Below, one piece after another: positions 11,686 to 60,851 of a DNA stretch of 64,000 nt. The position numbers were made by a program, and so were the translations under genes. Origin of the DNA: Caproiciproducens sp. CPB-2 (GTDB lineage: Bacteria; Bacillota; Clostridia; Oscillospirales; Acutalibacteraceae); the NCBI RefSeq assembly GCF_036287215.1, contig NZ_CP142860.1, positions 2,604,001-2,668,000 on the forward strand, written 5' to 3'. Under the pieces are notes generated by a model. That model did not search any database, had not been told where the DNA came from, and worked only from the letters and a program-made list of their open reading frames with translations. Positions within the stretch are counted from its first letter, which is position 1. Each line of letters starts with the position of its first letter.

Positions 11686-11767
11686 AGTCTTTGCTCCTCT
11701 CTTTTTCTATATAAACCCCTTTTATGGGTCTATATCTAAAAAATTGTTCTTCAAAATACGAGATGTC

Positions 11768-12730
11768 TTACTTCTTGCCCACAGATGCCTTATGGCGGAT
11801 AGAGTCTACCAGAACCGCCAGTAGGATGACTATGCCAACAACAAGCTTCTGTAGGTTAGAGGAAACATTAAGCAGATTCAGACCATTACGGATGACGACC
11901 ATTATGATCGCGCCGAAAAAAGTACCCCATACGCTGCCAAAACCGCCGAGCAAACTGGTGCCGCCAATAACGCACGAAGCGATTGCATCCATTTCATAGT
12001 CCAGGCCAGCTGTAGACTGTGCGGAGTTAAGCTTTGCTACCAGAATAATAGAAGCGATTGCAGCACACAGACCGGATAGCGTGTAAGCAAATATTTTGTA
12101 CTTGTCAACATTGATACCGGACAGCCGGGTGGCCTCCTCGTTGCCGCCGATGGAGTAAATATAGCGGCCGAATTTTCGGTACTTCATGATGTAATAGAAC
12201 ACGATGAACAGCACGATCATGAACAGAATCTGTACTGGAAACCCGGTGCCCGGAATGGTGCCCTGGCCGATCCATCGGAAGGATTCTGAGTAACCGGTGA
12301 TGGTTTGGCCGTCGGCGATGGTCAGCGCCGCGCCACGCGCCATGGACATCATGGCCAGTGTCGCGATCATCGGCTGCAGCTTAAACTTGGCGATCATAAC
12401 ACCGTTGAAAGCACCGCATACCAAGCCGATCGCCAGAGCAACGACGACACCAAAAAAGGTAGACATTTTCCCTTCCACAACAATTTTGCCCATGACGATA
12501 CCGCTGAATGCTACGATCGAACCAACCGAAATATCAATACCACCGGTAAAAATGACCAGGTTCACGCCCAGCGCCAGCACCGCCATCACGGTTACCTGCT
12601 GCAGGATGTTGACCATGTTGGCAAATGTACGGAACGCCGGCTCGATAATAGACATTACAGCGCAAAGTATGATCAATACAAACAATGCCGACATATTCGA
12701 CAGGTCAATCTTCTGAAATTTCTCTTTCAT
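11768..12730 (-). CDS. Sugar/inositol ABC transporter permease (RbsC-like)
   Basis: 320-residue membrane protein of the BPD_transp_2 family with about 8-10 hydrophobic helices. The conserved segment GVNLVIFTGGIDISVGS and the cytoplasmic coupling stretch NEEATRLSGINVDKYK are typical of RbsC/XylH/inositol permeases. The gene lies between its ATPase gene, with almost no gap, and its binding-protein gene, giving the order ATPase-permease-binding protein in the direction of transcription. Confidence 0.9.
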   Translation of the reverse strand: MKEKFQKIDLSNMSALFVLIILCAVMSIIEPAFRTFANMVNILQQVTVMAVLALGVNLVIFTGGIDISVGSIVAFSGIVMGKIVVEGKMSTFFGVVVALAIGLVCGAFNGVMIAKFKLQPMIATLAMMSMARGAALTIADGQTITGYSESFRWIGQGTIPGTGFPVQILFMIVLFIVFYYIMKYRKFGRYIYSIGGNEEATRLSGINVDKYKIFAYTLSGLCAAIASIILVAKLNSAQSTAGLDYEMDAIASCVIGGTSLLGGFGSVWGTFFGAIIMVVIRNGLNLLNVSSNLQKLVVGIVILLAVLVDSIRHKASVGKK

Positions 12731-12731
12731 C

Positions 12732-14258
12732 TTACTCTTCCCTCATTAATAGATTGGTTTTCGTACCGGTTGCATAGCCGACAACCATTTCCTCCGTGAC
12801 ATTTCTGATTTCCTCGCCCTCGATCAGGCCGGTCAGTGCACCCTCGTGCATGACATAGATACGGTCGCTGATGCCCATGCATTCCGAAAGCTCGGATGTT
12901 ACCATGATGACCGCCTTGCCTTGCTCCTTGAGCGAGTTCATAATCTTATAGATTTCCGCCTTCGCGCCGACATCGATACCGCGGGTCGGCTCGTCGAACA
13001 TGATGATGTCGGAATCGGTGTTAAGCCATTTGCAAATAACGACCTTTTGCTGGTTACCCCCGGACAGATTCTTTGCTTTCTGCTCAAGCGATGGAGTCTT
13101 AACATGTATGGAGTCGGCGATTCTCTGATTATGGGCGGTCTCCTTCGCGCGATTAAACCCGAAAGGTGTCATCGCCGTGGCCATGTTTGTAAGTGAAATG
13201 TTCTGGTTAAGCGAGAAGCTCAGGATCAGACCCTGGTTCTTCCGGTCTTCGGTCAGCAGCGCGAGGCCAATGTTCTTCGCTTGCTCGCAGCTCGCAATCT
13301 TGACCGTCTTACCCTTGACGCGAATCTCTCCACTGTCATACGGATCCGCGCCGAACACTGCACGTAGTAGTTCGGTGCGGCCGGCACCCATCAGTCCATA
13401 AAAGCAGGTAATTTCGCCAGCCCGTGCGTAAAAGGAAATTCCTTTAAGCGTGTTGCCCTGTATAAGGTCGCTCACTTCCAACAATTTTTCGCCCGGAGCG
13501 ACCGAGACCTTGGGATAATATTCATTTAATTCACGTCCGACCATCATCGCGACCATCTGATCGATTGTGGTATCACTGATGTTAACCGTATCAATATACT
13601 TACCGTCACGAAAAACTGTCACTCGGTCTCCGATTCTCAGGATTTCTTCTAAACGATGGGATATGTAGATAACCGCCACACCCTGCTCTTTCAGTTTTTT
13701 AATGATAGCAAATAAGCTGTCTACTTCCCTTTCGGTCAGTGCGGAAGTAGGTTCATCCATGATAATGATGTCGCACTTAAAGGAAAGTGCTTTCGCAATC
13801 TCAACCATCTGCATCTGCCCCACAGAAAGAGTGGAGACCAGAGCTCTTTCGGAAATATCGGAATTGATGGAGTCGAGGAGTTCACGTGCCTGACTGTACA
13901 TCCGTTTCCAATCGACTTGCCCTCCCCGTTTTGTCGGCTGTCGCCCCATGAAGATGTTTTCTGCGACAGTCAGATTCCTCAGTAAGTTCATCTCCTGAAA
14001 AATAATGCTGATACCTCTTGCTCGCTGTTCGTCTACGCTACGCGAAACGATTTCTTCCCCTTTGTAGATGATTTTCCCTTCATAGTCCGTGTTGACACCT
14101 GCCAGCACCTTCATGATGGTGGACTTTCCCGCGCCGTTCTCACCAATTAGAACATGAACCTCACCCGGCTCCACATCCAGGCGCACTTTATCCAGCGCCA
14201 ATACTCCAGGGAAGCGGACGGTAATATCTTCCATCTGGACAATATACTGATCCTCCAT
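12732..14258 (-). CDS. Sugar/inositol ABC transporter ATPase (tandem ABC domains)
   Basis: 508 residues with two ABC domains, as in RbsA/MglA. The first has Walker A GENGAGKST, signature TLSVGQMQM and Walker B IIIMDEPTSAL. The second has the degenerate Walker A GLMGAGRTE and the signature LSGGNQQKV with MFDEPTRGID. It energises import by the permease at 11768-12730. The ribosome-binding site GAAGGAGC precedes the ATG. As first gene of the importer it follows the GC-rich iolE by about 90 bp. Confidence 0.92.
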   Translation of the reverse strand: MEDQYIVQMEDITVRFPGVLALDKVRLDVEPGEVHVLIGENGAGKSTIMKVLAGVNTDYEGKIIYKGEEIVSRSVDEQRARGISIIFQEMNLLRNLTVAENIFMGRQPTKRGGQVDWKRMYSQARELLDSINSDISERALVSTLSVGQMQMVEIAKALSFKCDIIIMDEPTSALTEREVDSLFAIIKKLKEQGVAVIYISHRLEEILRIGDRVTVFRDGKYIDTVNISDTTIDQMVAMMVGRELNEYYPKVSVAPGEKLLEVSDLIQGNTLKGISFYARAGEITCFYGLMGAGRTELLRAVFGADPYDSGEIRVKGKTVKIASCEQAKNIGLALLTEDRKNQGLILSFSLNQNISLTNMATAMTPFGFNRAKETAHNQRIADSIHVKTPSLEQKAKNLSGGNQQKVVICKWLNTDSDIIMFDEPTRGIDVGAKAEIYKIMNSLKEQGKAVIMVTSELSECMGISDRIYVMHEGALTGLIEGEEIRNVTEEMVVGYATGTKTNLLMREE

Positions 14259-14351
14259 GTAATGCTCCTTCCTTCATTTTCCCCTATTTACGATACCTCC
14301 TGCGACGCACGCAGCGATTGCAAACGAACCATAATGACAAACGCGTAAAAA

Positions 14352-15248
14352 TTACATATTGATCATACTGCGGATGTATTCCCGCGCTTTCTTTGCGTAA
14401 ACAAACGGATTCGCAATGGCGGGGTCCTGTTCCGCCTCTACAAGCAGCCAGCCCTCATAATGATTCTGAGAAAGGATGTCAAAAACCGGCTGGAAATCGA
14501 TTGCGCCGTCGCCGGGAACGGTAAACGCGCCCAGACGCACCGCCTGAAGGAAGCTGAGCTTTTCCGCTTTTACACGAGCAACAACTGCCGGCCGGACATC
14601 CTTCAGATGCACATGCTTAATACGGCCCGCATATTTTTTCAGGACGGCCAGCGCGTCTTCGCCGGAAAACACCAGATGACCGGTATCGTACAGCAGAGAA
14701 ACCGCGGAGGGGTCCGTATTCTCCATCAGCCGGTCAATCTCCTGTGTGGTCTGCACAACCGTGCCCATATGATGGTGATAAACAAGCTTCATGTTCTTTT
14801 CGGCGGCAAGCCTTCCCAGCTTTTCCAGCCCCGTTGTGAGTATTTTCCACTCCGCATCGTTCATAACATATTTCCCGTCGAAAATCGGGGTATCCATCTG
14901 CCCCTGTACGCTGTGCCCCTGTTCGGAAACGACAATCACCTTCGCGCCAAGGTCGTATAGAAAATCGCGGTGCCGGATAAACGCTTTTTCGGTTTCCTCA
15001 TAAGGCTGCGTCGTCAGGAAAGAGCTGAACCACGCGCTGGCAATGCGCAGGTTCCTTTCCTCCATATAGCCTTTCAGCACACCGGCATCGTGCGGATATT
15101 TATTGCCGACCTCGGTGCCGGAAAAACCCGCGAGCGCGGCTTCGCTGATACACTGCTCAAACGAATTTTCCTTGCCGAGGTCGGGCATATCGTCGTTGGT
15201 CCATGCAATGGGGGCGATGCCGAGAAAAACATTCTTTTTATCAAACAT
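14352..15248 (-). CDS. iolE: Inosose dehydratase, copy 1 (GC-richer)
   Basis: 298 residues starting at MFDKKNVFLGIAPIAWTNDD; a longer in-frame opening to 15377 overlaps iolD, and GAGGAG about 9 nt before 15248 supports the shorter start. Catalytic and metal motifs match the family (LVYHHHMGTVVQT, LLYDTGHL, HVHLKDVRP, LLVEAEQDP). It follows iolD with a 16-bp gap and shares its GC-rich codon use, so this is probably the ancestral iolE of the cluster; the copy at 5853-6743 is diverged and AT-richer. Confidence 0.92.
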   Translation of the reverse strand: MFDKKNVFLGIAPIAWTNDDMPDLGKENSFEQCISEAALAGFSGTEVGNKYPHDAGVLKGYMEERNLRIASAWFSSFLTTQPYEETEKAFIRHRDFLYDLGAKVIVVSEQGHSVQGQMDTPIFDGKYVMNDAEWKILTTGLEKLGRLAAEKNMKLVYHHHMGTVVQTTQEIDRLMENTDPSAVSLLYDTGHLVFSGEDALAVLKKYAGRIKHVHLKDVRPAVVARVKAEKLSFLQAVRLGAFTVPGDGAIDFQPVFDILSQNHYEGWLLVEAEQDPAIANPFVYAKKAREYIRSMINM

Positions 15249-47297: not shown

Positions 47298-47699
47298 ATG
47301 TTTTCTTCCTGCAAAAAACGATATCTGTTTGCAATCTACGAGCTGGGATTCGACGGCCGCGAGGTCCACTGCAAAGACATTGCGCGCTCCCTCGGAATTA
47401 AATGTCCCAGCGCCTCCAAAATGCTAAAAGCCATTGCTTTGGAAGGGCTGATTGATAAAGAATATTACGGGACCGTGCGTTTCACCGCGCGCGGAGTCCG
47501 AATCGCGAACGAGCTGTATACCCGTTATCTGCTGCTGTACGCCTTTTTTTCCGAAACCCTTCAGGTTTCCCCGGAAAACGCACGCCGGGACGCGATATTC
47601 TCCCTGTGCGATCTCTCGGAAGAAAGTATTGATAAAATATCCGGCGTCACGCTGACCGCTGCAGTCAAAAAAAAGTCCAGCCCATTTTCCGGGGATTGA
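47298..47699 (+). CDS. DtxR/MntR-like regulator lacking the usual metal ligands
   Basis: 133 residues. The N-terminal winged helix matches DtxR/MntR (YLFAIYELG, KDIARSLGIKCPSASKMLKAI, cited in part; YYGTVRFTARG). A dimerisation part follows. Aligned by eye with Bacillus MntR, all six metal ligands are changed: D8 to Arg, E11 to Phe, H77 to Tyr or Leu, E99 to Ile, E102 to Leu, H103 to Cys. Four cysteines (5, 25, 36, 104) are present. It is probably DNA-binding, but not a classical Mn/Fe sensor. AAGGAGAG precedes the ATG. It lies between feo and mntH with its own transcript. Confidence 0.8.
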   Translation: MFSSCKKRYLFAIYELGFDGREVHCKDIARSLGIKCPSASKMLKAIALEGLIDKEYYGTVRFTARGVRIANELYTRYLLLYAFFSETLQVSPENARRDAIFSLCDLSEESIDKISGVTLTAAVKKKSSPFSGD

Positions 47700-47770
47700 T
47701 AAAAACGCCATTTTCAGATATACTGTTATTTATATTGTAAGAAAATGACAGAATCTGGGGTGCGCTTTTC

Positions 47771-49042
47771 ATGAATGCAGTCAAACAAAAAATCAGTCAG
47801 CTCTTTGCAAAGGACCATAAACGGCCGGACATTTCACTCAGCCTGTTTAAATACATAGGGCCCGGGCTTCTGGTGACGGTGGGCTTTATCGATCCGGGCA
47901 ACTGGGCGACCAATATCGCCGCCGGGTCGGATTTCGGCTACGGCCTGCTCTGGGTAATCACGCTTTCCACAATTATGCTGATTCTTCTTCAGCACAATGT
48001 CGCCCATCTGGGAATTGTAACCGGCGACTGTCTTGCGGAGGCGGCTACCCGGCACCTGCATAAAAAAATCAGCGTTCCCGTGCTGATTACCGCGCTGCTG
48101 GCCTGCGCCTCCACCGCCCTTGCGGAGCTGCTCGGCGGGGCCATCGCGCTGAATATGCTGTTCCATATCCCGGTGAAGGCCGGTTCCCTGATTGTTTTCG
48201 CGGCGGTCACGGCAATGCTTTTCAGCAACTCCTATAAGAAGATTGAAAAGATCATCATCGGATTTGTTTCCGTGATCGGGCTGTCCTTCCTGTACGAGCT
48301 GACCATGGTGAAAATCGACTGGGGCGCGGCGGCCGCGGGATGGGTGACGCCTGTTTTCCCGGAAAACTCCGCGTTTATCATTATGAGCGTGCTGGGCGCG
48401 GTGGTAATGCCGCACAACCTGTTTCTGCACTCGGAAGTCATTCAGAGCAGGCAATTTAATCTGGAAGACAAAGCTGTTTTGGAAAAACAGCTGAAATACG
48501 AATTTACGGATACCCTTTTCTCCATGATCGTGGGCTGGGCCATCAACAGCGCAATGATCCTGCTTGCGGCCGCCACCTTTTTTCAGCAGCACATCCCGGT
48601 GGACGAGCTTTCCCAGGCGCACACGCTGCTGACGCCGCTGATCGGAAACGCTTCCGCCGTCATCTTCGCCGTAGCCCTGCTTTTCGCCGGATTCTCCTCG
48701 TCGATTACCGCCGGAATGACCGGCGGCAGCATTCTGGCGGGCATGTTTGGCGAGCCCTACAGCATCAGCGACAGGCACACCCGCATCGGCGTACTGGGGA
48801 CCCTGATTGCCGCCATGGCGGCCATTCTGTTCATCAGCGACCCGTTCAACGGCCTTCTCATTTCCCAGATGCTGCTGAGCATTCAGCTTCCCATCACCAT
48901 TTTCCTGCAGCTGTACCTGACTTCCTCCCGGAAGGTGATGGGCGAATACAAAAACACGCCGCTCCACAACGCGATGCTTTGGGCGGTCGGAATCGCGGTA
49001 ACCGGCCTGAATGTCTATCTGCTGATAGACACACTCCTGTAA
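47771..49042 (+). CDS. mntH: Nramp-family divalent metal transporter
   Basis: 423 residues with about 11 helices. TM1 carries the metal-site motif GFIDPGNWATNIAAGS and TM6 the GAVVMPHNLFLHS motif; the methionine that selects Mn2+/Fe2+ over Mg2+/Ca2+ is present, so it is a transition-metal importer and not an NrmT-type Mg transporter. The second gene after the DtxR-like regulator, consistent with metal-responsive expression, although no GTTAG-N6-CTAAC palindrome lies before it. Confidence 0.92.
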   Translation: MNAVKQKISQLFAKDHKRPDISLSLFKYIGPGLLVTVGFIDPGNWATNIAAGSDFGYGLLWVITLSTIMLILLQHNVAHLGIVTGDCLAEAATRHLHKKISVPVLITALLACASTALAELLGGAIALNMLFHIPVKAGSLIVFAAVTAMLFSNSYKKIEKIIIGFVSVIGLSFLYELTMVKIDWGAAAAGWVTPVFPENSAFIIMSVLGAVVMPHNLFLHSEVIQSRQFNLEDKAVLEKQLKYEFTDTLFSMIVGWAINSAMILLAAATFFQQHIPVDELSQAHTLLTPLIGNASAVIFAVALLFAGFSSSITAGMTGGSILAGMFGEPYSISDRHTRIGVLGTLIAAMAAILFISDPFNGLLISQMLLSIQLPITIFLQLYLTSSRKVMGEYKNTPLHNAMLWAVGIAVTGLNVYLLIDTLL

Positions 49043-49876: not shown

Positions 49877-50010
49877 CTGCCGTCCTCCTCTTGATCAAAC
49901 TGAAAAGCCATTCTGCCGTACGTGTGCCGCTGTAGAGCGGCGCATGCTTTTCTTTTTATTATACCCGCCTTATCCCGGAAAGTAAACGGAATGCCAAATA
50001 CGCATGAAAA

Positions 50011-50051: not shown

Positions 50052-50480
50052 TTACCGGCCGGGCGGTTTGCCGCAGCAATGCCTTTTTATCTCTGTAACG
50101 GCTTCGTCGATATACTGCGAAATGGTCTTATCCTGCATTCCGATAATATGGACATGCCTTTTTACAGCGGGGATCAAAAACACCCTGTCCGCCAAACAGC
50201 CGGACACCGCCATCGCCATTTTCGGGCTAACTTCTCCGTACATGGCGTTCGGAAGGATGATCCCGAGCGGGCCGACAATGACATCCGCGCGGGCGCAGTT
50301 GTAAACCACCGCGTTTTCCCCGGTTGCCCCGGCGTTTGCTCCGCCCTTCATCATATTGGAGGTAGCCAGCGCGTTGGTACCCACCGCGATCACTTCCGCT
50401 TCGGGCAGCGCGTCTTTCAGCCGTTCCACAATGCTTCTGCCCATTCCGCCGCCCTGGCCGTCGATCACTACTATCTGCAT
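50052..50480 (-). CDS. DUF3842 family protein
   Basis: 142 residues beginning MQIVVIDGQGGGMGRSIVE, a Rossmann-like glycine loop, then GTNALATSNMMKGGANAGATG, NCARADVIVGPLGIILPN and GMQDKTISQYIDEAV (each cited in part), ending HCCGKPPGR. The function of the family is unknown. Its start codon overlaps the M24 gene by 10 nt and the operon terminator follows directly, so it belongs to the catabolic operon as last gene. GGAG precedes the ATG by 7 nt. Confidence 0.85.
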   Translation of the reverse strand: MQIVVIDGQGGGMGRSIVERLKDALPEAEVIAVGTNALATSNMMKGGANAGATGENAVVYNCARADVIVGPLGIILPNAMYGEVSPKMAMAVSGCLADRVFLIPAVKRHVHIIGMQDKTISQYIDEAVTEIKRHCCGKPPGR

Positions 50481-51595
50481 AGGATATCTCCATAACGGCG
50501 TGATGCGCCTTCGTTTAGATCTGTCAGAGCCACAGCGCCTGCATTTTCCACCAGCACCGTATCCGTTATACGCGGACCGCCGAATTTCGGATCGTACAGA
50601 GTCGGCAGAAGAACGTCCACCACCATATTTTTTTCCAGCACATGGTCAAGGCCCCTGCCCAGAATCGGGTAAAATTCCGACTGGCGAATTCCCACGCCGT
50701 AGCCGATATGGTCCATAAACATTCTGGCGTAGCCGTGGTCGTGGATGACCTTGAACACCCTGTCGTAAATCTCGCCGGATACCGCGCCCGGTTTGATCGC
50801 CTCCATGGCGGCCTTCTGCGCCTCCATCAGGATTTTGTAGATTTCCACCGACTCCGGCGCGACGTCGCCCAAAAAGACCGTACGGCACATCTTGGCGGCA
50901 TAGCCCTTGTAAGAAGCCCCCAGATGAATGACCACGGGCTGATTGTTGTCGATCACATAGTCTCCCGCGTAAGGGTGTACGAGCTGCTGGCGGTCGTGAC
51001 GCAGCACCTGCATACGGAACGTGCTGCCTTCCGAACCCGCCTTGCGCATGGCGTACTCCGCCTCCGCAAGGATTTCCGTCTCCTTTACGCCGGGACGGAC
51101 GGCCTCGATTCCCGCCCGCATGCCGATGGAGACAAACCGTGCGGCCTTTTTGATATACTCGATCTCCTGCTCCTCTTTAACAGAGCGGATTTTATAGCAA
51201 ATTGTCGCGATATCACCGAAATAGATGCCGGGGACGGTATCCCGCAGGCATTGGTAATCCTTCAGACTGATGAAATAACGCGTGAATCCGACTTTTGGGT
51301 TGGGGATGCCCATTTCCAGAATCATGTCCGCTGTTTTCTGGCTGACATTGTCCTTGGGAAAGAAATAAGGGATGACTTCCAGGCCCGACCGGTCGCGCAC
51401 ATGGCGTGCCTCCAGCCAGAGGCACAGCATCTTCGGTTCCCCTTTCGCCGGAATAATCAAGGAACCTCCTTCAATATCATCCACATTGGCAAAGTAAATC
51501 AGGTTTTCCCTGTCCATGATGACCGCCGCGTCCAGATCAGCTTTCTGCAGCTCCTGCTGCAGCGCGGTAATTCTGCCTACAACAATTCCTTCCAT
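50471..51595 (-). CDS. M24 (creatinase/prolidase-fold) protein without metal ligands
   Basis: 374 residues. The N-terminal creatinase domain is at about 1-135 and the pita-bread domain at 145-374. The five metal ligands of metallopeptidases are mostly missing: His224 stands for the first Asp (VVIHLGASYKGY), Lys235 for the second, Tyr299 for the His of the GHGIG motif (DHIGYGVG), and RITD replaces RIED; only Glu307 of the HE motif is kept. It is therefore more like metal-independent creatinase than an Xaa-Pro peptidase, and likely a C-N hydrolase or lyase of a small molecule. GGGAGGAG precedes the ATG. Confidence 0.8.
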   Translation of the reverse strand: MEGIVVGRITALQQELQKADLDAAVIMDRENLIYFANVDDIEGGSLIIPAKGEPKMLCLWLEARHVRDRSGLEVIPYFFPKDNVSQKTADMILEMGIPNPKVGFTRYFISLKDYQCLRDTVPGIYFGDIATICYKIRSVKEEQEIEYIKKAARFVSIGMRAGIEAVRPGVKETEILAEAEYAMRKAGSEGSTFRMQVLRHDRQQLVHPYAGDYVIDNNQPVVIHLGASYKGYAAKMCRTVFLGDVAPESVEIYKILMEAQKAAMEAIKPGAVSGEIYDRVFKVIHDHGYARMFMDHIGYGVGIRQSEFYPILGRGLDHVLEKNMVVDVLLPTLYDPKFGGPRITDTVLVENAGAVALTDLNEGASRRYGDILCR

Positions 51596-51685
51596 TACAC
51601 TTCTCCTCCCTATTAAATCGCAGGAAGGGGGCGTGACCGGCCCCCTCCTTACTTAATATTACTATTATTAACTTAGGATCACTGA

Positions 51686-52936
51686 TTATTTTGCTTCCTG
51701 AGTGTCAAAATCTGCTTTCTCACAGATCAGAGAAACGACAACGCCGCCTACCAAAGCCCAGAAAGCGGAACCGATGCTGAAAATGCTGACGCCGCTGACA
51801 CCGATGACCAGCGCGGCAAACGCGCCCATTCTGAACTTTCTGCTTCCGAAACCGTCTTGAAACGCATTGATTAGAACGTTGATCATCGCGACGCCCGCGA
51901 GAACGTTAATGAGAGAAGCGGGGATTGCTTTGACAAATGCCATGGCAAAGCTTGCGAAAAGGCCGAAGGAAGCAAACAAAACACCGTTTACAATACCTGC
52001 CGCATAGCGCCCTTCCTTATTTTCGCCGGCTTCTTCCGACGAACAGATCGCGGTCATCGGGCCCGCGATATTCGCGTTGTGGGCGCCAAACATACCGGAA
52101 AGGATACCGCCGATCCCGCTGATAATGGTCATACCGTTGACAGGCACTTTATACCCCTGTGCCATCAGAACGCCGACCGCCTGGGCGTTTTCCGCTCCGA
52201 CTACCAGCGCGGCGAGCGGAACAGAAACGGACAGAACTGTTGCGATGTTGAACTTGGGAACGACAATTTGCGGCGGTATGTACTTGAGGTCAACAGCGTT
52301 GGCCGCCATGCCGCCCGTGGCCAGCAGGGCGATGATGCCGAAAATCAAAGCCGCGAGCACCGGCGGGAATTTCTTAATCAGCTTCGGGACGAAGAAGAAA
52401 CCGATCAAGGCCGCGCCGCAGACAATCGGGGATTCCCCGGTAGAGGTCACGATGCTCGTACCGAACCGCAGCATACAGCCCGCGATCATCCCCATGACAA
52501 TGGGAAGCGGAAGCCATTTCATAACCTTGCCCATCAGGCCGGTGACACCGAGCAGAAGGACGATAATACCGGCCATGATGAAAGAAGCGGCGGCTTCATT
52601 GAAGGTGAAGCCGGTCAGAGCAGCCCCCAGCATGGAAGCGCCCGGAATGGAATACGCGCCGACGATCGGAATTTTGTAATAAAGGCCCATAACCAGGCTG
52701 ATTAAACCGCCTAAAACATAAATGCCGAAAAGCCAGGAGACAGTTTGCTCCGTGGTGTAGCCAGCCGTCGTACTGGCTTTGATGGTGACCAGCGCGGGGC
52801 CGGTGCATCCGAAAATTGCTGCGACAACACCCGCGGTAATTGTCTTGGAATTCAGATTTTTGCCCAGATCGGATAATCCTGAACCAAAGCCGGGACCCTT
52901 TTCAAAAAATGACAATCCTCTACTTACAGACGCCAT
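51686..52936 (-). CDS. BenE-family transporter (benzoate/H+ symporter-like)
   Basis: 416 residues with about 12 helices; the BenE pattern is seen in GVVAAIFGCTGPALVTIKAS, YSIPGASMLGAALTGFTF and MFGAHNANIAGPMTAIC. The family is related to NCS2/xanthine permeases, and characterised members import benzoate. It probably imports the substrate of this operon, hinting at an aromatic, heteroaromatic or other planar carboxylate. It lies 24 bp after the LarA-like gene. Confidence 0.85.
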   Translation of the reverse strand: MASVSRGLSFFEKGPGFGSGLSDLGKNLNSKTITAGVVAAIFGCTGPALVTIKASTTAGYTTEQTVSWLFGIYVLGGLISLVMGLYYKIPIVGAYSIPGASMLGAALTGFTFNEAAASFIMAGIIVLLLGVTGLMGKVMKWLPLPIVMGMIAGCMLRFGTSIVTSTGESPIVCGAALIGFFFVPKLIKKFPPVLAALIFGIIALLATGGMAANAVDLKYIPPQIVVPKFNIATVLSVSVPLAALVVGAENAQAVGVLMAQGYKVPVNGMTIISGIGGILSGMFGAHNANIAGPMTAICSSEEAGENKEGRYAAGIVNGVLFASFGLFASFAMAFVKAIPASLINVLAGVAMINVLINAFQDGFGSRKFRMGAFAALVIGVSGVSIFSIGSAFWALVGGVVVSLICEKADFDTQEAK

Positions 52937-52960
52937 AAATCATTTCTCCTCATCCAATTA

Positions 52961-54424
52961 TTATTTGTTTCTGTTTAAAATGGAAATATCGACGCCTCTT
53001 TGCTTAAGCCACTTCGGCAGCAACACGTTGTCAACCCTTTCGCTGACTTCGGGTGCTTTTTCAATCAGGAGCTTTGCAAGGGATTCGCTGACGTTCATGC
53101 CGCCCATTGCTCCATCGAAGATGATGACCTTATCCGTTCCGGTGACATTGTAAGCGAACTGCATCGCCTGTTCAGTGGATCTTGCGGTGACCGCATAATC
53201 CATATAACCGATATTCATGGAGTCGGTGTCGAACAGCTTTCCCTGTTCCTCCCCGACGACCACCGTGGGGATATTCTTGGAGAAGAACTCGGACGGATAG
53301 CCGGTCCAGGCATAGTTGTGCACGCACATCCTGATAGCCGGGTTCATCGGCGGCGTTTCCTCCAGCAGGGGCTGACCGTTCCTGCGGTAGAACGCCTCGG
53401 TGTACCAGGTGTAGGGCGGAAGCGGGCTTTCCATATCGTAAAGGTCCGTGTTCGCGCCGGTAAAGTTGGCGTAGATAACGCCTGCGGAGAAAACATACGG
53501 CACCGGGCAGGGGAAGTCGAGAACCGCGATGCATTTGTCAATTTCACCGAACAGCGTCATGATCTTGCCGTACAGCTGGCAGCCGACAAAGGTTGCGCGG
53601 TCATTCAGCGCATAAAGATCGTTGTCGCAGTCCGCGCCGATGACGCCGTGGGGGCCGCAGTTGAGGAAAGCAGCAAAGGCGAATTTGCTCTGGACGAATT
53701 TTGATTCAAAGATCGCACGGGCCGTGAAATTTGCCGCGCGGGGGCCGAGGTTCTGGTGATAGGTGCTGCGGGTTTCGCAGCGGGCATAGGACATGCCGAA
53801 CGGCTTTACAGCCTTGTCTACCTGCCTGTGGAAATGCACCTCACGCACGTCGGTGTGATGCGCGTGGATGATCCAGTCGGCGTCGTAGACCTTCTTGATT
53901 CCGTACAGGGTGCCGATCTCGGTTTCAATCGGAATGCCTTCGTCAATCGGGGCAACGCCGATCGCCTTGCCGTTATAATAGGTATCAAGGCCGTACCGTT
54001 TGATGTATTCCTCCGTCTCGCGGAAGCGCATGCCCACGCCGGCACGCAGGCGGATGTCCCTGCATCCGGTTCTCTTTTCCACAACATCCCTGATCGCTTT
54101 CAGAAGCTCGGCGTACGGTTCGCCGCCAAACAGGGTAAAGCCATGGTGGGAAGCCAGCACATTCACGGAATGCTCCGGCTTAATCATGCTCATGTCGACC
54201 TTCATCAGGGCCTCTTCCGCCGCTTTGCGGACGTTTTTGATGGCGTCCGGGCCGCCCGGCAGCAGCACGGGAGGAAGGTCCGGGAAGAGCTCGCGCAGAT
54301 AAAGGGATACCATTCCCGGCATCTCGGAAACACGCGCTTTCACCAGCGAAGGGTCAATGCCGTACTGGGAAGGCTTCGGTAAAATCGGCTTAATGGGTTC
54401 ATGCATCAATTCCGTGTAATTCAT
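52961..54424 (-). CDS. LarA-like (DUF2088-like) protein of unknown activity
   Basis: 487 residues, no close family recognised. The central part recalls nickel-pincer lactate racemase LarA: GVGMRFRETEEY (residues 129-140) in place of the GxHRxxTxxE loop, GTLYGIKKVYDADWIIHAHH (171-190) in place of the strand before the ligand His, then VHFHRQVDKAVKPFG (196-210) with Lys204/Lys207 near where LarA has its cofactor lysine, and His223. The His of the first motif is Met here. It overlaps the ferredoxin/BFD gene by 4 nt (ATGA), with GGGGAGG before the ATG. A 2-hydroxyacid racemase/epimerase-type reaction is possible; confidence in the family link is only moderate. Confidence 0.5.
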   Translation of the reverse strand: MNYTELMHEPIKPILPKPSQYGIDPSLVKARVSEMPGMVSLYLRELFPDLPPVLLPGGPDAIKNVRKAAEEALMKVDMSMIKPEHSVNVLASHHGFTLFGGEPYAELLKAIRDVVEKRTGCRDIRLRAGVGMRFRETEEYIKRYGLDTYYNGKAIGVAPIDEGIPIETEIGTLYGIKKVYDADWIIHAHHTDVREVHFHRQVDKAVKPFGMSYARCETRSTYHQNLGPRAANFTARAIFESKFVQSKFAFAAFLNCGPHGVIGADCDNDLYALNDRATFVGCQLYGKIMTLFGEIDKCIAVLDFPCPVPYVFSAGVIYANFTGANTDLYDMESPLPPYTWYTEAFYRRNGQPLLEETPPMNPAIRMCVHNYAWTGYPSEFFSKNIPTVVVGEEQGKLFDTDSMNIGYMDYAVTARSTEQAMQFAYNVTGTDKVIIFDGAMGGMNVSESLAKLLIEKAPEVSERVDNVLLPKWLKQRGVDISILNRNK

Positions 54425-55041
54425 TTCTTTTCCTCCCCTTTCGGATTTGTGTGCACAACGCGGTCCAGCAGTTGTTTATCCTCTTCGAAGTAGAACCCTC
54501 TCTTATTGTACTTTTGTACAACATCTTCGGGAAGCGTCCATGCGGTAGGCGTTACGCCGTACCACTGCCAGCCGTTTTCGTCGCGCTTCAGCTCGATTCC
54601 CGCCGCCTGAATCAGACGGAGCAGCGGCTGAATGCACTCGATGGTGCAGCCTGTGCGGATTCCCGTCACAGAAGAAATTTCGTCCGGGGTTTTGGCACCG
54701 GCCATAATCGCCGCGGCAACCTCCTCGGCGCGAACGCCTACGCAGTAGCAGATGACCTGCTCCGGATTCAGATGCGCCTTTTCACACAATTCGCGGATTT
54801 TTCCGGAATCGTATTGGGAAGCATCCACCCCGATGGTAAACGGTTTCTCCCTCTTCACCATTTTGATCGCGTGGAACGGGCAGCGGGATTCACAGTTGGT
54901 ACAGCCGCGGCACGCGTCCTCTTTTACTTTTGCTTTTCTGTCGGTTACCGAAATGGCGTAAACAGGACACACTTTTTCACAAACCTTACAGCCGCGACAT
55001 ACGTCCTGCTGCACTTCGGCCAAAAGAGTCACTCTTTTCAT
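54421..55041 (-). CDS. Ferredoxin fused to BFD-like [2Fe-2S] domain
   Basis: 206 residues. Two [4Fe-4S] motifs come first (CRGCKVCEKVCP at about 15-26 and CRGCTNCESRCP at 44-55). A BFD-like motif follows with VICYCVG and, about 30 residues on, GCTIEC. The C-terminal 60 residues, with WQWYGVTPTAWTLPEDV, match nothing I know. It probably passes electrons to or from an oxidoreductase, or activates the LarA-like protein whose start codon overlaps its stop. GAGAGGAGAGG precedes the ATG. Confidence 0.8.
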   Translation of the reverse strand: MKRVTLLAEVQQDVCRGCKVCEKVCPVYAISVTDRKAKVKEDACRGCTNCESRCPFHAIKMVKREKPFTIGVDASQYDSGKIRELCEKAHLNPEQVICYCVGVRAEEVAAAIMAGAKTPDEISSVTGIRTGCTIECIQPLLRLIQAAGIELKRDENGWQWYGVTPTAWTLPEDVVQKYNKRGFYFEEDKQLLDRVVHTNPKGEEKK

Positions 55042-55168
55042 CCGTTAAACCTCTCCTCTCCTGTTTCTGTTTTCTTGACTGCGGACCTTTTCAATACGGT
55101 TTTGTCTGGATTCATCCAATCAATTGCCTCCTTCTGGAAGTAGAGTGCTTTTCTCCCTCATCTCCTTT

Positions 55169-56182
55169 TTACCGGGTTTTCTGCTGAGAAAGTTCAAATG
55201 CTACGTCTATAATCATGTCCTCCTGTCCGCCGACCATCCCGCGGCGGCCCAGTTCGACAAGAATATCACGGGGATTCAGATGGAATTTTTCCGCCGCCCT
55301 GTAAGTGTGGAGCAGGAAGCTGGAGTAAACACCTGCGTAACCGAGCATCAGGGAAGCCGTGTTGACGACCTGCGGACGCTGCATAATCGGCTCCACGATC
55401 TCCTCGGCAACATCCATAATGCCGTACAGGTCAACGCCGGTGTCGTACCCAAGGCGGTCAAGCACCGCGCAAAGCACCTCATTCTGCGTATTTCCGGCGC
55501 CCGCGCCCAGCCCGCGGCAGGTGACGTCGATATAAGAAGCACCTTCCTCGACAGCCGCAACAGAGTTTGCGACGGAAAGGCCGAGGTTGTTGTGGGAATG
55601 GAACCCGATCGGAATCCCAATGGAATTTTTCAGCGCGCTGATTCTTGCGCGGACGTCGTCCGGCACCATATGTCCGGCGGAATCCGCAAGATTGATGTAG
55701 TCCGCACCGCATTCCTCAAAAATCTTTGCCTGCTCGACAATTTTTTCCGGAGAACCCATGTGGGACATCATCAAAAAGCCCACCGCCATCATACCGATGC
55801 TCTTTGCGTATTTGATATGCTGAATGGCGATATCCGCCTCGGTTACATGGGTGGCGACACGGACGGCCTGCGCGCCGTTGTCCTTTGCTTCCTGAAGGTC
55901 TTCAATGGTTCCGATGCCGGGGAGCAGCAAAACGGTCAGCTTCGCGTTTTTCACCACTTTGCTCGCGGCGCTGAGAAGTTCCATTTCCGGGACCTTGGAC
56001 ATCCCGTAGTTGATGGAGGAGCCCGCAATGCCGTCGCCGTGGCTCAGTTCGATCAGGCTGACGCCCACCTTGTCCAGTCCCCCTGCAATCGCGGTGGCCT
56101 GTTCCACCGTAAAGCTGTGGCTGACTGCATGGCTTCCGTCACGCAGCGTGGTATCTACAATCTTAATTTTCCTTTTTTCCAT
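55169..56182 (-). CDS. mhpE: 4-hydroxy-2-oxovalerate aldolase
   Basis: 337 residues of the DmpG/MhpE HMGL-like aldolase family. Metal and catalytic residues lie in VDTTLRDGSHAVSHSF and FHSHNNLGLSVANSV; the C-terminal communication domain that docks the dehydrogenase is present (MLGYAGVYSSFLLHT). It splits 4-hydroxy-2-oxovalerate into pyruvate and acetaldehyde, which is channelled to the partner encoded 5 bp upstream. In an anaerobe lacking ring dioxygenases the source of its substrate is unusual. Confidence 0.93.
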   Translation of the reverse strand: MEKRKIKIVDTTLRDGSHAVSHSFTVEQATAIAGGLDKVGVSLIELSHGDGIAGSSINYGMSKVPEMELLSAASKVVKNAKLTVLLLPGIGTIEDLQEAKDNGAQAVRVATHVTEADIAIQHIKYAKSIGMMAVGFLMMSHMGSPEKIVEQAKIFEECGADYINLADSAGHMVPDDVRARISALKNSIGIPIGFHSHNNLGLSVANSVAAVEEGASYIDVTCRGLGAGAGNTQNEVLCAVLDRLGYDTGVDLYGIMDVAEEIVEPIMQRPQVVNTASLMLGYAGVYSSFLLHTYRAAEKFHLNPRDILVELGRRGMVGGQEDMIIDVAFELSQQKTR

Positions 56183-56187
56183 AGCGG

Positions 56188-57057
56188 TTAGCCCTCCCTG
56201 CTCAGCAGATTTTCTGCTACTTTTTCTGCAACGGCGGTTGCCGCCTGATTGATGATGTCGAGATTGCCGGAATATTTCGGCAGGAAGTCGCCTGCACCCT
56301 CAACCTGTACAATCACGGTAACCTTGTTTCCATCGATCACCGGAGGGACACGCAGCTTGTAGCCCGGCACATAGGCCTGAACCCTTTTCACATATTCGTG
56401 CACGGATTCAATGATCTTTTTTTCATCGGGATTCTTTACAATGGAATAAATGGTGTTCGTCATCATCAGCGGCGGTTCCGCGGGATTCAGAACGATAATC
56501 GCCTTGGCTTTGTCCGCGCCGCCGACGATTTCGAGCGCTTTTTTCGTCGTCTGGGTAAACTCGTCAATGTTTGCACGGGTTCCGGGACCCGCACTCTTGG
56601 AAGAAAGGCACGCGACGATCTCCGTATAGGACGAATCCGCCACCTTATCGATGGCATAGGCAATCGGAATCGTCGCCTGCCCGCCGCAGGTCACCATATT
56701 GAAGTTATCCACGTGGGCAAGGTGGTCCAGGTTGACGCAGGGGACCACATAGGGTCCCACCGCGGCCGGGGTCATATCCATGACGATCTTTCCGGCAGCT
56801 TTCAGGATCGGCGCGTTATGTAAATGCGCTTTCGCGCTGGTTGCGTCAAATACGATTTTGATATCCGGATCCGCGGCTACCGCGTCAACGCCGTTCAGCG
56901 ATGTTTTAAAGCCCAGCCCTGCAGCTCTTTTGATGCCCTCGGACTCTACGATGCCGGCCATCATATGCATTTGCAGATGTTTGCTCTTCATAACCTTATA
57001 CATCAGGTCGGACCCGATATTGCCGGGACCAATGATGCCTACCTTAATTTTCTCCAT
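56188..57057 (-). CDS. mhpF: Acetaldehyde dehydrogenase (acylating)
   Basis: 289 residues of the DmpF/MhpF family. NAD-binding [13 protein letters not shown] comes first and the catalytic Cys is in [16 protein letters not shown]. It forms a channelled complex with the aldolase and turns acetaldehyde into acetyl-CoA with NADH. The internal ATG at 57057 is preferred because AAGGA stands 7 nt before it; an ATG two codons earlier is too close to the site. Confidence 0.94.
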
Positions 57058-57078
57058 TTTCATTTCCTTTCAAGAATG

Positions 57079-57852
57079 TTATTTGAATTTGGCTGTCACA
57101 CTGCCCATGCCGTAAAAACTCACAGTAAAGCTGTCGCCTTTTGCAGCCGGTTGTGCGGCGGTCAATGCGCCCGCCATTACAATATTTCCTTCTTTCAGTT
57201 CAATGTCAAAAGCAGAAAGTTTATTTGCCAGCCACGCGACGGAAGCCGCGGGGTTGCCCAGAACCTCGGCACAGGTACCGCTGTTCACAAGCTCGCCGTT
57301 CTTTTCCAGCGTCATGCCGGTCAGGCGCATATCCACATTGGCAATGGGAGTCATGCGTCCGCCGATGATGAACCTTGCACTGGAACCATCGTCCGCAATG
57401 GTGTCCGGAAGGGTAATCTTCCAGTCCTTGATGCGGCTGTCAACAATTTCAATCGCGGGAACCACGTACTCCGTGGCATTGTATACGTCGGCGACGGTCA
57501 CGCCGGGGCCGCGTAAAGTCTTTTTCAGGCAGAAGGCAAGCTCACCCTCGACCTTCGGCTGGATCAGCTCGTCAATGGGACAGGCTTCCCCTTCCAGTAC
57601 CAGCATTTTGTCGGTCAGATGGCCGTAATCCGGCTCATTTACATGCAGAAGGTTCTGCATGCCCTTGCTGGTAAGACCGATTTTCATGCCGATGATTTTT
57701 TCCCCCGCGGCAACTTTTTTCGCCACATTTTCAAGCTGAACGGCATAGGCGTCTTCGACGGTCATGTCCGGATTGGATGCCGTAGGCATCGCAATCTGAC
57801 GGCATTCTTTTTCTGCCTCAAATAAGTCCCGAGCAATTTTTTTGCGGTCCAT
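57079..57852 (-). CDS. 2-oxopent-4-enoate hydratase / 4-oxalocrotonate decarboxylase family enzyme
   Basis: 257 residues of the FAH-like MhpD/DmpH family: IGMKIGLTSKGMQ, VEGELAFCLKK (metal-binding Glu pair), PAIEIVDSRIKDWK. It could hydrate 2-hydroxypenta-2,4-dienoate to the aldolase substrate (MhpD/DmpE) or decarboxylate 4-oxalocrotonate (DmpH). The subfamilies cannot be told apart by eye, though IGLTSKGMQ recalls the decarboxylase branch. It lies 21 bp before the dehydrogenase gene. Confidence 0.85.
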   Translation of the reverse strand: MDRKKIARDLFEAEKECRQIAMPTASNPDMTVEDAYAVQLENVAKKVAAGEKIIGMKIGLTSKGMQNLLHVNEPDYGHLTDKMLVLEGEACPIDELIQPKVEGELAFCLKKTLRGPGVTVADVYNATEYVVPAIEIVDSRIKDWKITLPDTIADDGSSARFIIGGRMTPIANVDMRLTGMTLEKNGELVNSGTCAEVLGNPAASVAWLANKLSAFDIELKEGNIVMAGALTAAQPAAKGDSFTVSFYGMGSVTAKFK

Positions 57853-57867
57853 AAATCTTACTCCTTT

Positions 57868-58782
57868 TTATGAATGATGATCATACCCGTAGTGTTCATG
57901 GTGGAAAGACTTTTTCATCAGCTTTTCCGCCAGCACCGCGGCGATTTTCTGAGCGGTTTCCTCTTTGCCGTCATGATTCTTCAGGCATTCCAGCAGCACG
58001 CCCGCCGCCAGCCTGACCTCGTCGTTCGGTCCGGGGAAGGATACCAGCATGGACGGCCCGACCGTTCCGACGGCAATGCGCACCCCGTCCTTGACGTGCC
58101 GCCCGGTTCCCTGCCGGAATTTTACAATATAAGGCGTTGCCGCCTGCGGATCGATTCTGAGCATACTCTCGACCGATTTATCCTTATCCTCGGCGCCGAC
58201 CCCGCCGGTGGTGATAATCAGCCCGAACGCGCGCGAGACCGCGTCGGACAGCTTATATTCCATGTCGTCCAGATCATCTTCAATCACATCCCCGACGGTC
58301 ACCTGATAGCCCTCGGACTCCAGAAGCTCTTTCAGATAGGGAGTGTTGGTATCTTCAATCAGGTTCTGCTTCAGCTCAAAGCCGGTCGGGAAGATGATCG
58401 CCCGTTTGGCAATGCGCTCCCTCATTTCATCCACCATGCTATCGACCTTCTGGCTCATCCTGGCGGGGTTCTCCCCTTCCAGGCAGATCAGTCCCAGAAT
58501 CCCATTGGAATGGATGCAGGAATCCGCGGTCAGATGCACACCGTCCAGCTTCGCAAGCGCTTCCAGCAGCGCGCGCTCCTTGCCCACAATGTTTTCGGTG
58601 GGAATATCGTTCTCCATAATGTCCAGCGTGATATGGTCCGGGCGGACGTCGACCACCAGCACCTTGCTGCTCTCCAGCCCAAGCACATCCGCCACGGTTT
58701 TTGCGAGCAGGGTCAGGTTCACATGATCGAGTCTGATATGATTGACCCAGAGCTCCGTTTTTTCCAGCAGATTCAAGCCCAT
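57868..58782 (-). CDS. MoaB/CinA-type (MoCF) domain protein with N-terminal extension and His-rich tail
   Basis: 304 residues. Residues about 110-290 form a molybdopterin-binding/CinA-N-like fold (IIFPTGFELKQNLIEDTN, LIITTGGVGAEDKDKS, SFPGPNDEVRLAAG). The first 100 residues (LTLLAKTVADVLGLESSKVL and on) are an added domain I do not recognise. The end SFHHEHYGYDHHS is a His cluster like those of nickel-handling proteins. COG1058-type domains may act on ADP-ribose or pyridine nucleotides; a Mo-cofactor role is the alternative. It lies 2 bp after the NadC-like gene. Confidence 0.7.
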   Translation of the reverse strand: MGLNLLEKTELWVNHIRLDHVNLTLLAKTVADVLGLESSKVLVVDVRPDHITLDIMENDIPTENIVGKERALLEALAKLDGVHLTADSCIHSNGILGLICLEGENPARMSQKVDSMVDEMRERIAKRAIIFPTGFELKQNLIEDTNTPYLKELLESEGYQVTVGDVIEDDLDDMEYKLSDAVSRAFGLIITTGGVGAEDKDKSVESMLRIDPQAATPYIVKFRQGTGRHVKDGVRIAVGTVGPSMLVSFPGPNDEVRLAAGVLLECLKNHDGKEETAQKIAAVLAEKLMKKSFHHEHYGYDHHS

Positions 58783-58784
58783 TT

Positions 58785-59609
58785 TCAGGATCCTCTTTCC
58801 GTCTCAATTTTTTGCAGCTGGACATCCATCTTGATATCCAGAAGCGGCGCGTCAACAATTTCTTTCCCAATGCAGAGCATCTCTATTCCGTAATCAAAGA
58901 ATTTCGGAATATCTTCCAGCCTGACGCCGCCCGCAAAAGCAATCTGCAGCTTTCCGCTCATCCCCATCTCCCCGACCTTTTTGGTGCAGCGGACCACATC
59001 CTCCAGATTGCCCGTGTCAACCATCAGGATGCTGCAGCCGTTTTCCACTGCCTGCTTCGTTTCTTCCTCAATGGAATTCTCTTTACCCTTTATCTGAATC
59101 ACCTTCGTTAGATCCCCGCAGCCGCGCACGCTTTCCAGCGCGGCGGGAATGGAGCCGAGCATACGGATATAGTTTTTATCGAGATAGACCATCGGCGTAC
59201 TGCTGATGCGGAAGGAAGCGCCACCCGCGGTAATCGCCTGCCGTACACCGTTTTTAATGGCAGGAGGCATCTTTTTCCAGGACCCGGACACAATCCGTAT
59301 TTTCCCCTGCGCCAGCCGGACGGCTTTCTGCGAGGCCGTAGCGATACCGGAAAATTTGGAGAGTGTTCCAATGACTCTTTCTTCCGCCATAGCCATGATT
59401 TTCGGGGCAGCGAGCACTTCGCCGATTGGTTCTCCCGTCTTTATGCTGTCCCCCTCGTGTAGAAACAGTCTGAGCTTTGCGCCGATTTCCCCTGTCAGCC
59501 GCTGCGCCTCCTCCGCGCCGGACAGGCATCCGTCGCGCTCGGGGATCAGCAGGGCCCGGAACTCCTTGTCAGCGATTTCTTTGAATATAATATCCCGGAT
59601 ATCTTCCAT
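58785..59609 (-). CDS. NadC/ModD-like phosphoribosyltransferase homologue
   Basis: 274 residues of the nicotinate-nucleotide pyrophosphorylase fold. An N-terminal barrel-sandwich domain (LFLHEGDSIKTGEPIGEVLA) with VIGTLSKFSGIAT, then the alpha/beta barrel ending IAFAGGVRLEDIPKFFDYGI. The quinolinate-binding motifs are altered: the usual TRKT...HR appears as SGSWKKMPP...ASFR. It is therefore not a standard NadC; ModD-like or a new substrate is likely. The ATG at 59609 follows GGAGG by 5 nt. First structural gene of the operon. Confidence 0.75.
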   Translation of the reverse strand: MEDIRDIIFKEIADKEFRALLIPERDGCLSGAEEAQRLTGEIGAKLRLFLHEGDSIKTGEPIGEVLAAPKIMAMAEERVIGTLSKFSGIATASQKAVRLAQGKIRIVSGSWKKMPPAIKNGVRQAITAGGASFRISSTPMVYLDKNYIRMLGSIPAALESVRGCGDLTKVIQIKGKENSIEEETKQAVENGCSILMVDTGNLEDVVRCTKKVGEMGMSGKLQIAFAGGVRLEDIPKFFDYGIEMLCIGKEIVDAPLLDIKMDVQLQKIETERGS

Positions 59610-59632
59610 ACTCTCCTCCATTTTCGTCATTA

Positions 59633-59723: not shown

Positions 59724-60494
59724 CTATCTATAACCCAGCCTCTGAGAAATCTGTAGCGCGCAGCTCTGCACATCCTTTGCGATGGATGCGATATTTTCCA
59801 TCGGCAGTCTTGCCGTAGGGGCCGATACACTGATTGCCGCAACCGGCTGGTTCAGGTGATTGAAAATAGGAGCCGCCACGCAGCGCAGGCCGGTTTCGAT
59901 TTCTTCGTTGTCGATCGCGTAACCGCAGGAACGCACATGATTCATTTCCCGACTTAAATCTTCTAAACAGGTAAGGGTATGCTCCGTATACTGCTCAAGA
60001 TTCCCTTTCACAAACAGACGCCTGAGCGCCTCGTCGCCCAAAAACGCAAGAATCGCCTTTCCCACTCCCGTGCAGTGCATCGGGGCCCGTTTACCGGTCT
60101 GAGAATAGACGATCATGGCGCCCGGGGCATCCACCTTATCAATATAGACGATTTCATCCCCATAATGGGCGGCCAGATGGACCGTAGCATTGTGCTTGCT
60201 GACCAGCTCTTCACAAAACGGCTTTGCTTCGTTGCGCAAATCCATGCGTTTATATACCAGACTGCCCAGTTCGAAAAGCTTTATGCCTAAACGGTACCGT
60301 TTTGTCTGCACATTTTGTTCCAGATAACCCTTGCTGACCAATGTATTCACGAGCCCGTAAACGGTGCTCTTGCTTAATTTCATCTGATCTGAAATTTCGG
60401 AAATTCCAAGCTCAACCAATTGTCCGTCAAAACACTCCAGAATATCCAGCGCACGGACAACAGACTGTACGAAAACGCCCGTTTCGCCTGTCAT
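59724..60494 (-). CDS. IclR-family transcriptional regulator
   Basis: 256 residues. N-terminal winged helix (ALDILECFDGQLVELGISEI, QMKLSKSTVYGLVNTLVSKG) and the C-terminal effector domain (GVGKAILAFLGDEALRRLF, YAIDNEEIETGLRCVAAPIF). IclR proteins commonly sense aromatic or small organic acids. It lies directly upstream of and in the same direction as the ten-gene operon, which is presumably its target. AAGGAGA precedes the ATG. Confidence 0.9.
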   Translation of the reverse strand: MTGETGVFVQSVVRALDILECFDGQLVELGISEISDQMKLSKSTVYGLVNTLVSKGYLEQNVQTKRYRLGIKLFELGSLVYKRMDLRNEAKPFCEELVSKHNATVHLAAHYGDEIVYIDKVDAPGAMIVYSQTGKRAPMHCTGVGKAILAFLGDEALRRLFVKGNLEQYTEHTLTCLEDLSREMNHVRSCGYAIDNEEIETGLRCVAAPIFNHLNQPVAAISVSAPTARLPMENIASIAKDVQSCALQISQRLGYR

Positions 60495-60815: not shown

Positions 60816-60851
60816 AGAAGGAGCCGGTTTCCATGGAAACCGGCTCCTTCT
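60816..60851 (-). terminator. Terminator of the chemoreceptor gene
   Basis: A 36-bp perfect palindrome centred on CCATGG (AGAAGGAGCCGGTTTCC and complement), followed on the minus strand by TTTGTC. Confidence 0.85.

Follow-up and report, generated by a model that had tools for sequence, protein, structure and literature searches.

Aromatic rings are reduced in a ferredoxin-linked manner by benzoyl-coenzyme A (CoA) reductases and other anaerobic ring reductases, whereas in the meta-cleavage pathway, in which rings are opened by dioxygenases, consecutive genes for a hydratase, MhpF and MhpE (mhpDFE or dmpEFG) form the lower part. Lactate racemase (LarA) and its superfamily work with the nickel-pincer nucleotide (NPN), the cofactor made by LarB, LarC and LarE. 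For furans, the Trudgill pathway (hmfABCDE and hmfFGH) is an aerobic route from hydroxymethylfurfural (HMF) or furfural through furan-2,5-dicarboxylate (FDCA) to furoate with the UbiD-type enzyme HmfF, and is described as hydroxylating and ending in 2-oxoglutarate (PMC6604932). The window analysed here, 64,000 nt of Caproiciproducens sp. CPB-2 (NZ_CP142860.1, positions 2,604,001 to 2,668,000), contained ten minus-strand open reading frames (ORFs), running from 59630 down to 50052, that resembled each of these systems in part. This operon probably encodes oxygen-independent catabolism of 2-furoate and, in relatives, also of HMF, furfural and FDCA via furoate.

As in mhpDFE and dmpEFG, the genes for the hydratase, MhpF and MhpE were consecutive, but no oxygenase or ring-cleavage dioxygenase was found among the ten genes with Pfam and NCBIfam. 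Aerobic meta-cleavage was rejected on this ground, and an anaerobic front end would take the place of the dioxygenase. CoA ligase and molybdenum hydroxylase were likewise absent from the ten genes. The steps from HMF or furfural to furoate with HmfF are shared with the Trudgill pathway by relatives of the operon; in contrast to that pathway, the ten genes, the only part of the genome examined for them, included no furoyl-CoA synthetase or dehydrogenase, and the route would be reductive instead of hydroxylating, yielding pyruvate and acetyl-CoA rather than 2-oxoglutarate. With benzoyl-CoA reductases it would have ferredoxin-linked ring reduction in common, but it would involve no CoA thioester, the operon encoded no benzoyl-CoA reductase- or BamB-type proteins, and the chemistry proposed is nickel-pincer hydride transfer.

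The gene set was conserved far beyond chance. A search of 5.8 billion proteins, in which 7999 candidates were scored, gave 1528 relatives of the 487-aa LarA-like protein (120 of them listed at 76-92% identity); a genome-contig scan with only two peptide patterns gave 30 loci, so that at least 30 exist; and the gene occurred in 26 of 398 genomes sampled from the phylum (cut-off E ≤ 1e-50). Fetched stretches holding the LarA-like gene, some of them cut by contig ends, made up 53 distinct loci, leaving out one duplicate (L086, the same as L022) and the stretches lacking that gene (L056, L057, L060, L119-L124 and L126). Neighbours were labelled by the best match per locus in BLAST against proteins of the window and of the loci, ORFs with less than 45% query coverage being left unlabelled, and the counts (Table 1) may include distant paralogues of IclR, alcohol dehydrogenase (ADH) and aldehyde:ferredoxin oxidoreductase (AOR). 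The ferredoxin/BFD gene stood directly upstream of the LarA-like gene in 49 of the 53 loci (same strand, ending -150 to +200 bases from the LarA-like start). The core was found in Bacillota, one spirochaete and one deltaproteobacterial metagenome-assembled genome (MAG), with 65-92% identity of the LarA-like proteins, and its order was nearly kept across dozens of distant genomes. The gene-neighbourhood check proposed in the preliminary description thus found the orphan genes conserved with mhpEF in other genomes, and its idea of a single system withstood the refuting condition set there for this check. The M24 and DUF3842 proteins were rejected as core members because they were present in only 34 and 7 of the loci; the DUF3842 protein probably lies outside the core.

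The LarA-like protein matched no model in Pfam or NCBIfam (Pfam taken to E 10 gave one chance-level match, E 0.18). PF09861 (Lar_N) gave no match to it by hmmscan to E 10, the operon gene was absent from the PF09861 matches of the genomes, and phmmer against PDB sequences yielded 0 matches. The predicted structure, however, supported a LarA fold. The name LarA-like, used from the outset, therefore has no support from sequence models (0 families) but has it from the fold, and the protein appears, from this model, to be a remote fold relative of the LarA superfamily rather than a filed member of it. Residues H197, K207 and H223 were invariant in the 53 LarA-like sequences, with the +10/+16 spacing of LarA; in a low-probability hhalign alignment, H197 and H223 lay opposite LarA H174 and H200, but K207 did not lie opposite K184. 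The ferredoxin/BFD protein had 13 Cys residues invariant in 53 sequences, and would be the electron-transfer subunit of the LarA-like protein, which in turn would be an NPN-dependent catalytic subunit that reduces furoate and opens its ring. Hence the operon protein shares with LarA the predicted fold and the presence of LarB, LarC and LarE in most genomes carrying it, the host's included, and differs in having no Lar_N match, an apparent Arg at the His108 site, an iron-sulfur partner and a setting in a degradation operon.

Linkage to NPN synthesis was seen at the genome level. Of the genomes with the operon gene, 25 of 28 had LarC, 25 of 28 had LarB and 27 of 30 had LarE, the last two counted above cut-off; LarC occurred in 25 of 26 operon-gene genomes against 225 of the 398 in the phylum sample (Fisher test, 4.4e-6, ignoring relatedness). 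At least one of LarB, LarC and LarE lay in the same stretch as the LarA-like gene in 18 of the 53 loci. Four draft genomes of the 28 (G007, Moorella thermoacetica; G011; G021; G024) had LarB and LarC and no PF09861 LarA that could be found, which leaves the operon protein as the only visible NPN client there. In the host's genome (G000), LarC, LarB and LarE were located at G000:C1:259788-262577. The cofactor is thus most likely the known NPN, made by LarB, LarC and LarE encoded elsewhere in the genome. The suggestion of an unusual cofactor in the preliminary description survives, but the orphan genes need not account for its whole synthesis. The host also encoded a canonical LarA homologue (PF09861, E 1e-60) some 7 kb ahead of the window (G000:C1:2596428-2596997) and far from LarB, LarC and LarE.

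Evidence on the substrate came from relatives carrying a UbiD gene. In loci L007 and L030, BenE and M24 were missing, and UbiD, UbiX and another transporter (named by eye) were found in their place. The L007 UbiD scored 581 bits against 6h6v and 194 bits against the next kind of UbiD, the furan idea having been put forward together with this comparison. 6H6V is HmfF of Pelotomaculum thermopropionicum (PtHmfF; PMC8988006), and HmfF is described as acting on FDCA and furoate (PMC6644310; PMC8252502). The UbiD proteins of L007, L018 and L030 were 56-58% identical to PtHmfF and those of 11 further genomes 59-83%; in L018, the deltaproteobacterial MAG, the HmfF-like gene (4149-5501, 56%) was one short frame past the LarA-like gene. 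The UbiD of genome G505 was identical to 6h6v over 448 residues, with a LarA-like gene 19.0 kb away in a set comprising IclR, ferredoxin/BFD, LarA-like, NadC, hydratase, MhpF, MhpE, ADH, MoaB and AOR.

In the 398 phylum genomes, 17 had an HmfF-like gene (cut-off E ≤ 1e-100), 26 a LarA-like gene and 8 both (Fisher test, 1.8e-6, ignoring shared descent). All six genomes whose UbiD was 54-60% identical to that of L007 had the LarA-like gene on the same contig, 0.4-15.3 kb apart; among the 11 with a UbiD at most 50% identical, only two (G075 and G114) had it, in neither case nearby, and a further search of five of these 11 at E ≤ 1e-20 found none. In the order of G205 (113 genomes, HmfF cut-off E ≤ 1e-130), HmfF was present in eight genomes, two of them shared with the six above, and the LarA-like gene in all eight, within 20 kb in seven and on another contig in G470. 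The 12 HmfF genomes spanned eight tool-assigned families (f13, f24, f75, f82, f100, f117, f134 and f149). AOR was encoded in the stretch of 11 of the 12 HmfF genes (the exception being L055) and an iron ADH beside most of them, NCBIfam having been run on one AOR and one ADH. A furfural-oxidising AOR is known (PMC10816221). Of the several candidate acids named in the preliminary description, furoate is the one to which HmfF, AOR and ADH in the relatives point, the host's own genome having no HmfF match. A benzoate-type substrate, suggested by the name BenE alone, was rejected, since the HmfF loci L007 and L030 have another transporter in place of BenE; HmfF locus L059 retains a BenE.

In the proposed pathway, ADH, AOR and HmfF of the relatives would convert HMF and furfural to FDCA or furoate, and BenE would import furoate. 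Ferredoxin could be reduced by AOR or by pyruvate:ferredoxin oxidoreductase encoded nearby, the latter gene being present in the stretch of six loci (L008, L014, L015, L017, L021 and L027). The ferredoxin/BFD protein would feed electrons of low potential into the LarA-like protein, and the latter, bearing a nickel-pincer-type cofactor, would transfer hydride onto the furan ring; this pair is put forward as the reductase because no other core protein seems able to supply two electrons. LarA is described as transferring hydride at the carbon adjoining the carboxylate (PMC11770544), which makes hydride delivery to a furan acid plausible, although as a net reduction, unlike the reaction of the racemases. 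Furoate (C5H4O3) plus 2 H would give dihydrofuroate, which has the formula C5H6O3 and is isomeric with 2-hydroxypenta-2,4-dienoate. Loss of the ring oxygen by elimination would convert dihydrofuroate to this dienoate, the substrate of the hydratase. The hydratase would form 4-hydroxy-2-oxovalerate, MhpE would cleave it to pyruvate and acetaldehyde, and MhpF would produce acetyl-CoA. By an estimate from heats of formation, the ring reduction would need no ATP. The central idea of the preliminary description, an imported planar acid converted without oxygen to 2-hydroxypentadienoate or 4-hydroxy-2-oxovalerate, survives, with the cofactor now most probably a product of LarB, LarC and LarE. A biosynthetic direction, from pyruvate and acetaldehyde to a new pyridine cofactor, was set aside, as HmfF, AOR, ADH, the transporters and IclR indicate catabolism.

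The NadC-like protein scored 100 bits with the nadC equivalog model, under its cut-off of 198, and its site was altered yet conserved in 46 sequences. In the numbering of human quinolinate phosphoribosyltransferase (QRPTase), the positions of His160 and Lys171 were replaced and Arg161 and Asp222 kept; a role as the quinolinate enzyme was rejected on account of the altered site residues. The MoaB-like protein had a conserved TTGGVGAEDKD (TGGxG motif), fell under the cut-off of all 15 listed MoaB, MogA and CinA equivalog models, and had CinA, MoeA and Mog proteins as Foldseek matches. In L022, the two were fused in one open frame of 596 aa (12911-14698). Pyridine nucleotides or the nucleotides of metal cofactors are what proteins of both families act on, and by analogy the two might bind, modify (e.g., adenylylate) or insert the pincer cofactor, a suggestion offered with some reserve; the NadC-like protein would then bind or process it, and the MoaB-like protein adenylylate or insert it. 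A more specific version, given somewhat less than an even chance, is that the LarA-like protein together with the ferredoxin/BFD protein represents an aromatic-ring reductase of a new class, in which NPN would take electrons from iron-sulfur clusters and pass hydride to 2-furoate, and for which the NadC-like and MoaB-like proteins would make a new form of NPN, such as an adenine dinucleotide. The best PDB matches of the M24 protein were prolidases, with ectoine hydrolase matching more weakly. As the preliminary description proposed, it looks metal-free: the positions of the usual M24 metal ligands held other conserved residues in 34 aligned sequences. In L055, from a genome with HmfF, a short frame (11419-11868) resembled the first part of M24 by eye and is possibly a remnant.

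Several observations weigh against furoate catabolism by an NPN-dependent reductase. The host's genome gave no HmfF match at E ≤ 1e-100, and furoate is thus proposed as its substrate through orthology of the core genes. Only 3 of the 30 contig-scan loci held HmfF in the stretch, in the phylum sample 6 of the 26 genomes with the LarA-like gene had it at 54% identity or more, and L007, L018 and L030 showed no AOR in the stretch. Homology of the LarA-like protein to LarA was weak by hhalign (probability 1.8 and 6.5%), the model was poor at residues 193-200, 212-227 and 307-343, where the site is expected, and the test of the H-K-H spacing (p 0.0016) was chosen post hoc. In the low-probability alignment, an invariant Arg133 occupied the LarA His108 site and Arg75 was not evident. 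The same three genomes, those of Breznakiella (complete), Oscillibacter sp. 1-3 and a 1.8-Mb MAG, were without LarB, LarC and LarE over cut-off. MhpE was missing from the stretch in 12 and MhpF in 13 of the 53 loci, some stretches being cut by contig ends; L016 (13519-14457) and L023 (12339-13220) had a DapA-family aldolase after IclR and neither MhpE nor MhpF in the stretch (L016 by NCBIfam). The locus counts also ignore shared descent.

Four other explanations were considered. If furans are the substrate, the LarA-like protein might still catalyse a redox-neutral, NPN-dependent isomerisation or epimerisation of a 2-hydroxy acid intermediate, the ring being reduced by a different enzyme that draws its electrons from the ferredoxin/BFD protein. 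The NPN enzymes described in the sources consulted are racemases or epimerases, and some LarA relatives have a single catalytic His and are suspected to catalyse other isomerisations (PMC12611868; PMC7583248), but the core holds no other oxidoreductase able to reduce the ring, the ferredoxin/BFD gene is immediately 5' of the LarA-like gene in nearly all loci, and one of the two racemase histidines is seemingly lost; this explanation is considered unlikely. Less likely again is that the LarA-like protein uses, along the lines suggested in the preliminary description, a cofactor other than NPN made by the NadC-like and MoaB-like proteins. Both are core proteins, joined in one ORF in L022, and three operon-gene genomes are without LarB, LarC and LarE; against this stand the enrichment of LarC, the 18 loci with LarB, LarC or LarE near the operon and the four genomes in which the LarA-like protein is the only visible client. 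Moreover, two of the three exceptions, Breznakiella (L005, G004) and Oscillibacter sp. 1-3 (L021, G013), have four PF09861 matches each, so that the lack is not specific to the LarA-like protein; either NPN is salvaged in these two or their LarAs function without it.

The same pathway logic could also serve a different heteroaromatic acid of small size, for example pyrrole-2-carboxylate, with HmfF, AOR and ADH acting on a related ring. PtHmfF is described as tolerating pyrrole-2-carboxylate, which also weighs against furoate, and as accepting oxazole-2-carboxylate (PMC8252502), and the PDB relatives of M24, prolidases and more weakly ectoine hydrolase, act on C-N bonds. Yet FDCA is the established HmfF substrate in the sources consulted, AOR and ADH beside HmfF fit HMF and furfural, direct opening to 2-hydroxypentadienoate is possible only for an oxygen ring, and M24 was not in 19 of the 53 stretches, which makes a substrate other than furoate quite improbable. 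Variable order and neighbours and the variable M24 and DUF3842 would fit an ordinary operon for aromatics or fermentation in which unrelated genes merely hitch-hike, but this is scarcely credible given that the core recurs not only in Bacillota but also in a spirochaete and in a deltaproteobacterial MAG, at the LarA-like identities given above. Furoate catabolism with an NPN-bearing reductase remains the preferred reading.

Table 1. Features of the operon and its upstream regulator in the window, with the number of the 53 LarA-like loci in which relatives were found.
Feature	Position	Strand	Basis	Loci
IclR-type regulator	59724..60494	-	ORF	43/53
NadC-like protein, QRPTase domains, altered site	58785..59630	-	PF01729/PF02749	45/53
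MoaB/CinA-like protein, MoCF domain plus 125-aa N-terminal part	57868..58782	-	PF00994, 54.6 bits	47/53
2-Hydroxypenta-2,4-dienoate hydratase (DmpE/MhpD-like; FAA_hydrolase)	57079..57852	-	TIGR03220 best model, 290 bits, under equivalog cut-off 409	48/53
MhpF/DmpF acetaldehyde dehydrogenase (acylating)	56188..57063	-	TIGR03215, 439 bits (cut-off 282)	40/53
MhpE/DmpG 4-hydroxy-2-oxovalerate aldolase	55169..56182	-	TIGR03217, 510 bits (cut-off 286)	41/53
Ferredoxin/BFD protein, two 4Fe-4S motifs plus BFD-like 2Fe-2S motif	54421..55041	-	Fer4, Fer2_BFD	52/53
LarA-like protein, 487 aa	52961..54424	-	Predicted fold; no family model matched	
BenE-family transporter	51686..52936	-	PF03594, 270 bits; TIGR00843 above cut-off	37/53
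M24 (prolidase-like) protein, metal-free-looking, accessory	50471..51595	-	PF00557	34/53
DUF3842 protein	50052..50480	-	PF12953	7/53

Intergenic spacing in the ORF list ranged from -10 to 127 bases (2, 15, 15, 5, 127, -4, 24, 90 and -10 from the first to the last gene), and the IclR gene, on the same strand 93 bases upstream of the first gene, probably encodes the regulator of the operon; a promoter-like site was located at 60596-60568, upstream of it. The first gene opens at 59630, and 59609, previously given as its end coordinate, is its third in-frame ATG. Ten minus-strand genes with small gaps or overlaps behind an IclR gene had been described beforehand and were borne out by the ORF list, and Pfam and NCBIfam confirmed the families QRPTase, MoCF, FAA_hydrolase/DmpE-like, MhpF, MhpE, Fer4 plus BFD, BenE, M24 and DUF3842. 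A terminator said to close the operon was not: no minus-strand terminator was found 3' of 50052, where the hairpins (49921-49946 and an inner one at 49928-49942) carry a T-run on the plus strand. Next to the operon end, two plus-strand genes (47298-49042, both named by eye) encoded a DtxR/MntR-like regulator and, after it, an Nramp-type metal transporter, and a 16-pair palindromic hairpin (60816-60851) lay between IclR and a chemotaxis-type gene, the latter named by eye.

Furan acids are formed on heating or breakdown of sugars; FDCA serves as a monomer for plastics, and furans are among the inhibitors present in hydrolysates of biomass. A 2018 review mentions two anaerobes reported to degrade furan aldehydes and expects that anaerobes may reveal further furan pathways (PMC6604932). 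In the open-access literature searched, no description was found of genes or enzymes of an anaerobic furan route or of a ring-reducing NPN enzyme; the component families are known, but these searches turned up no precedent for the pathway or for the ring reduction proposed. If the reading is correct, the operon would provide genes for furan use by gut, rumen, acetogenic and syntrophic bacteria and would suggest a reason for the presence of HmfF in Pelotomaculum. The question could be put to the test in hosts that can be cultured, Moorella thermoacetica among them, and nickel-pincer chemistry would be widened from isomerisation to net reduction.

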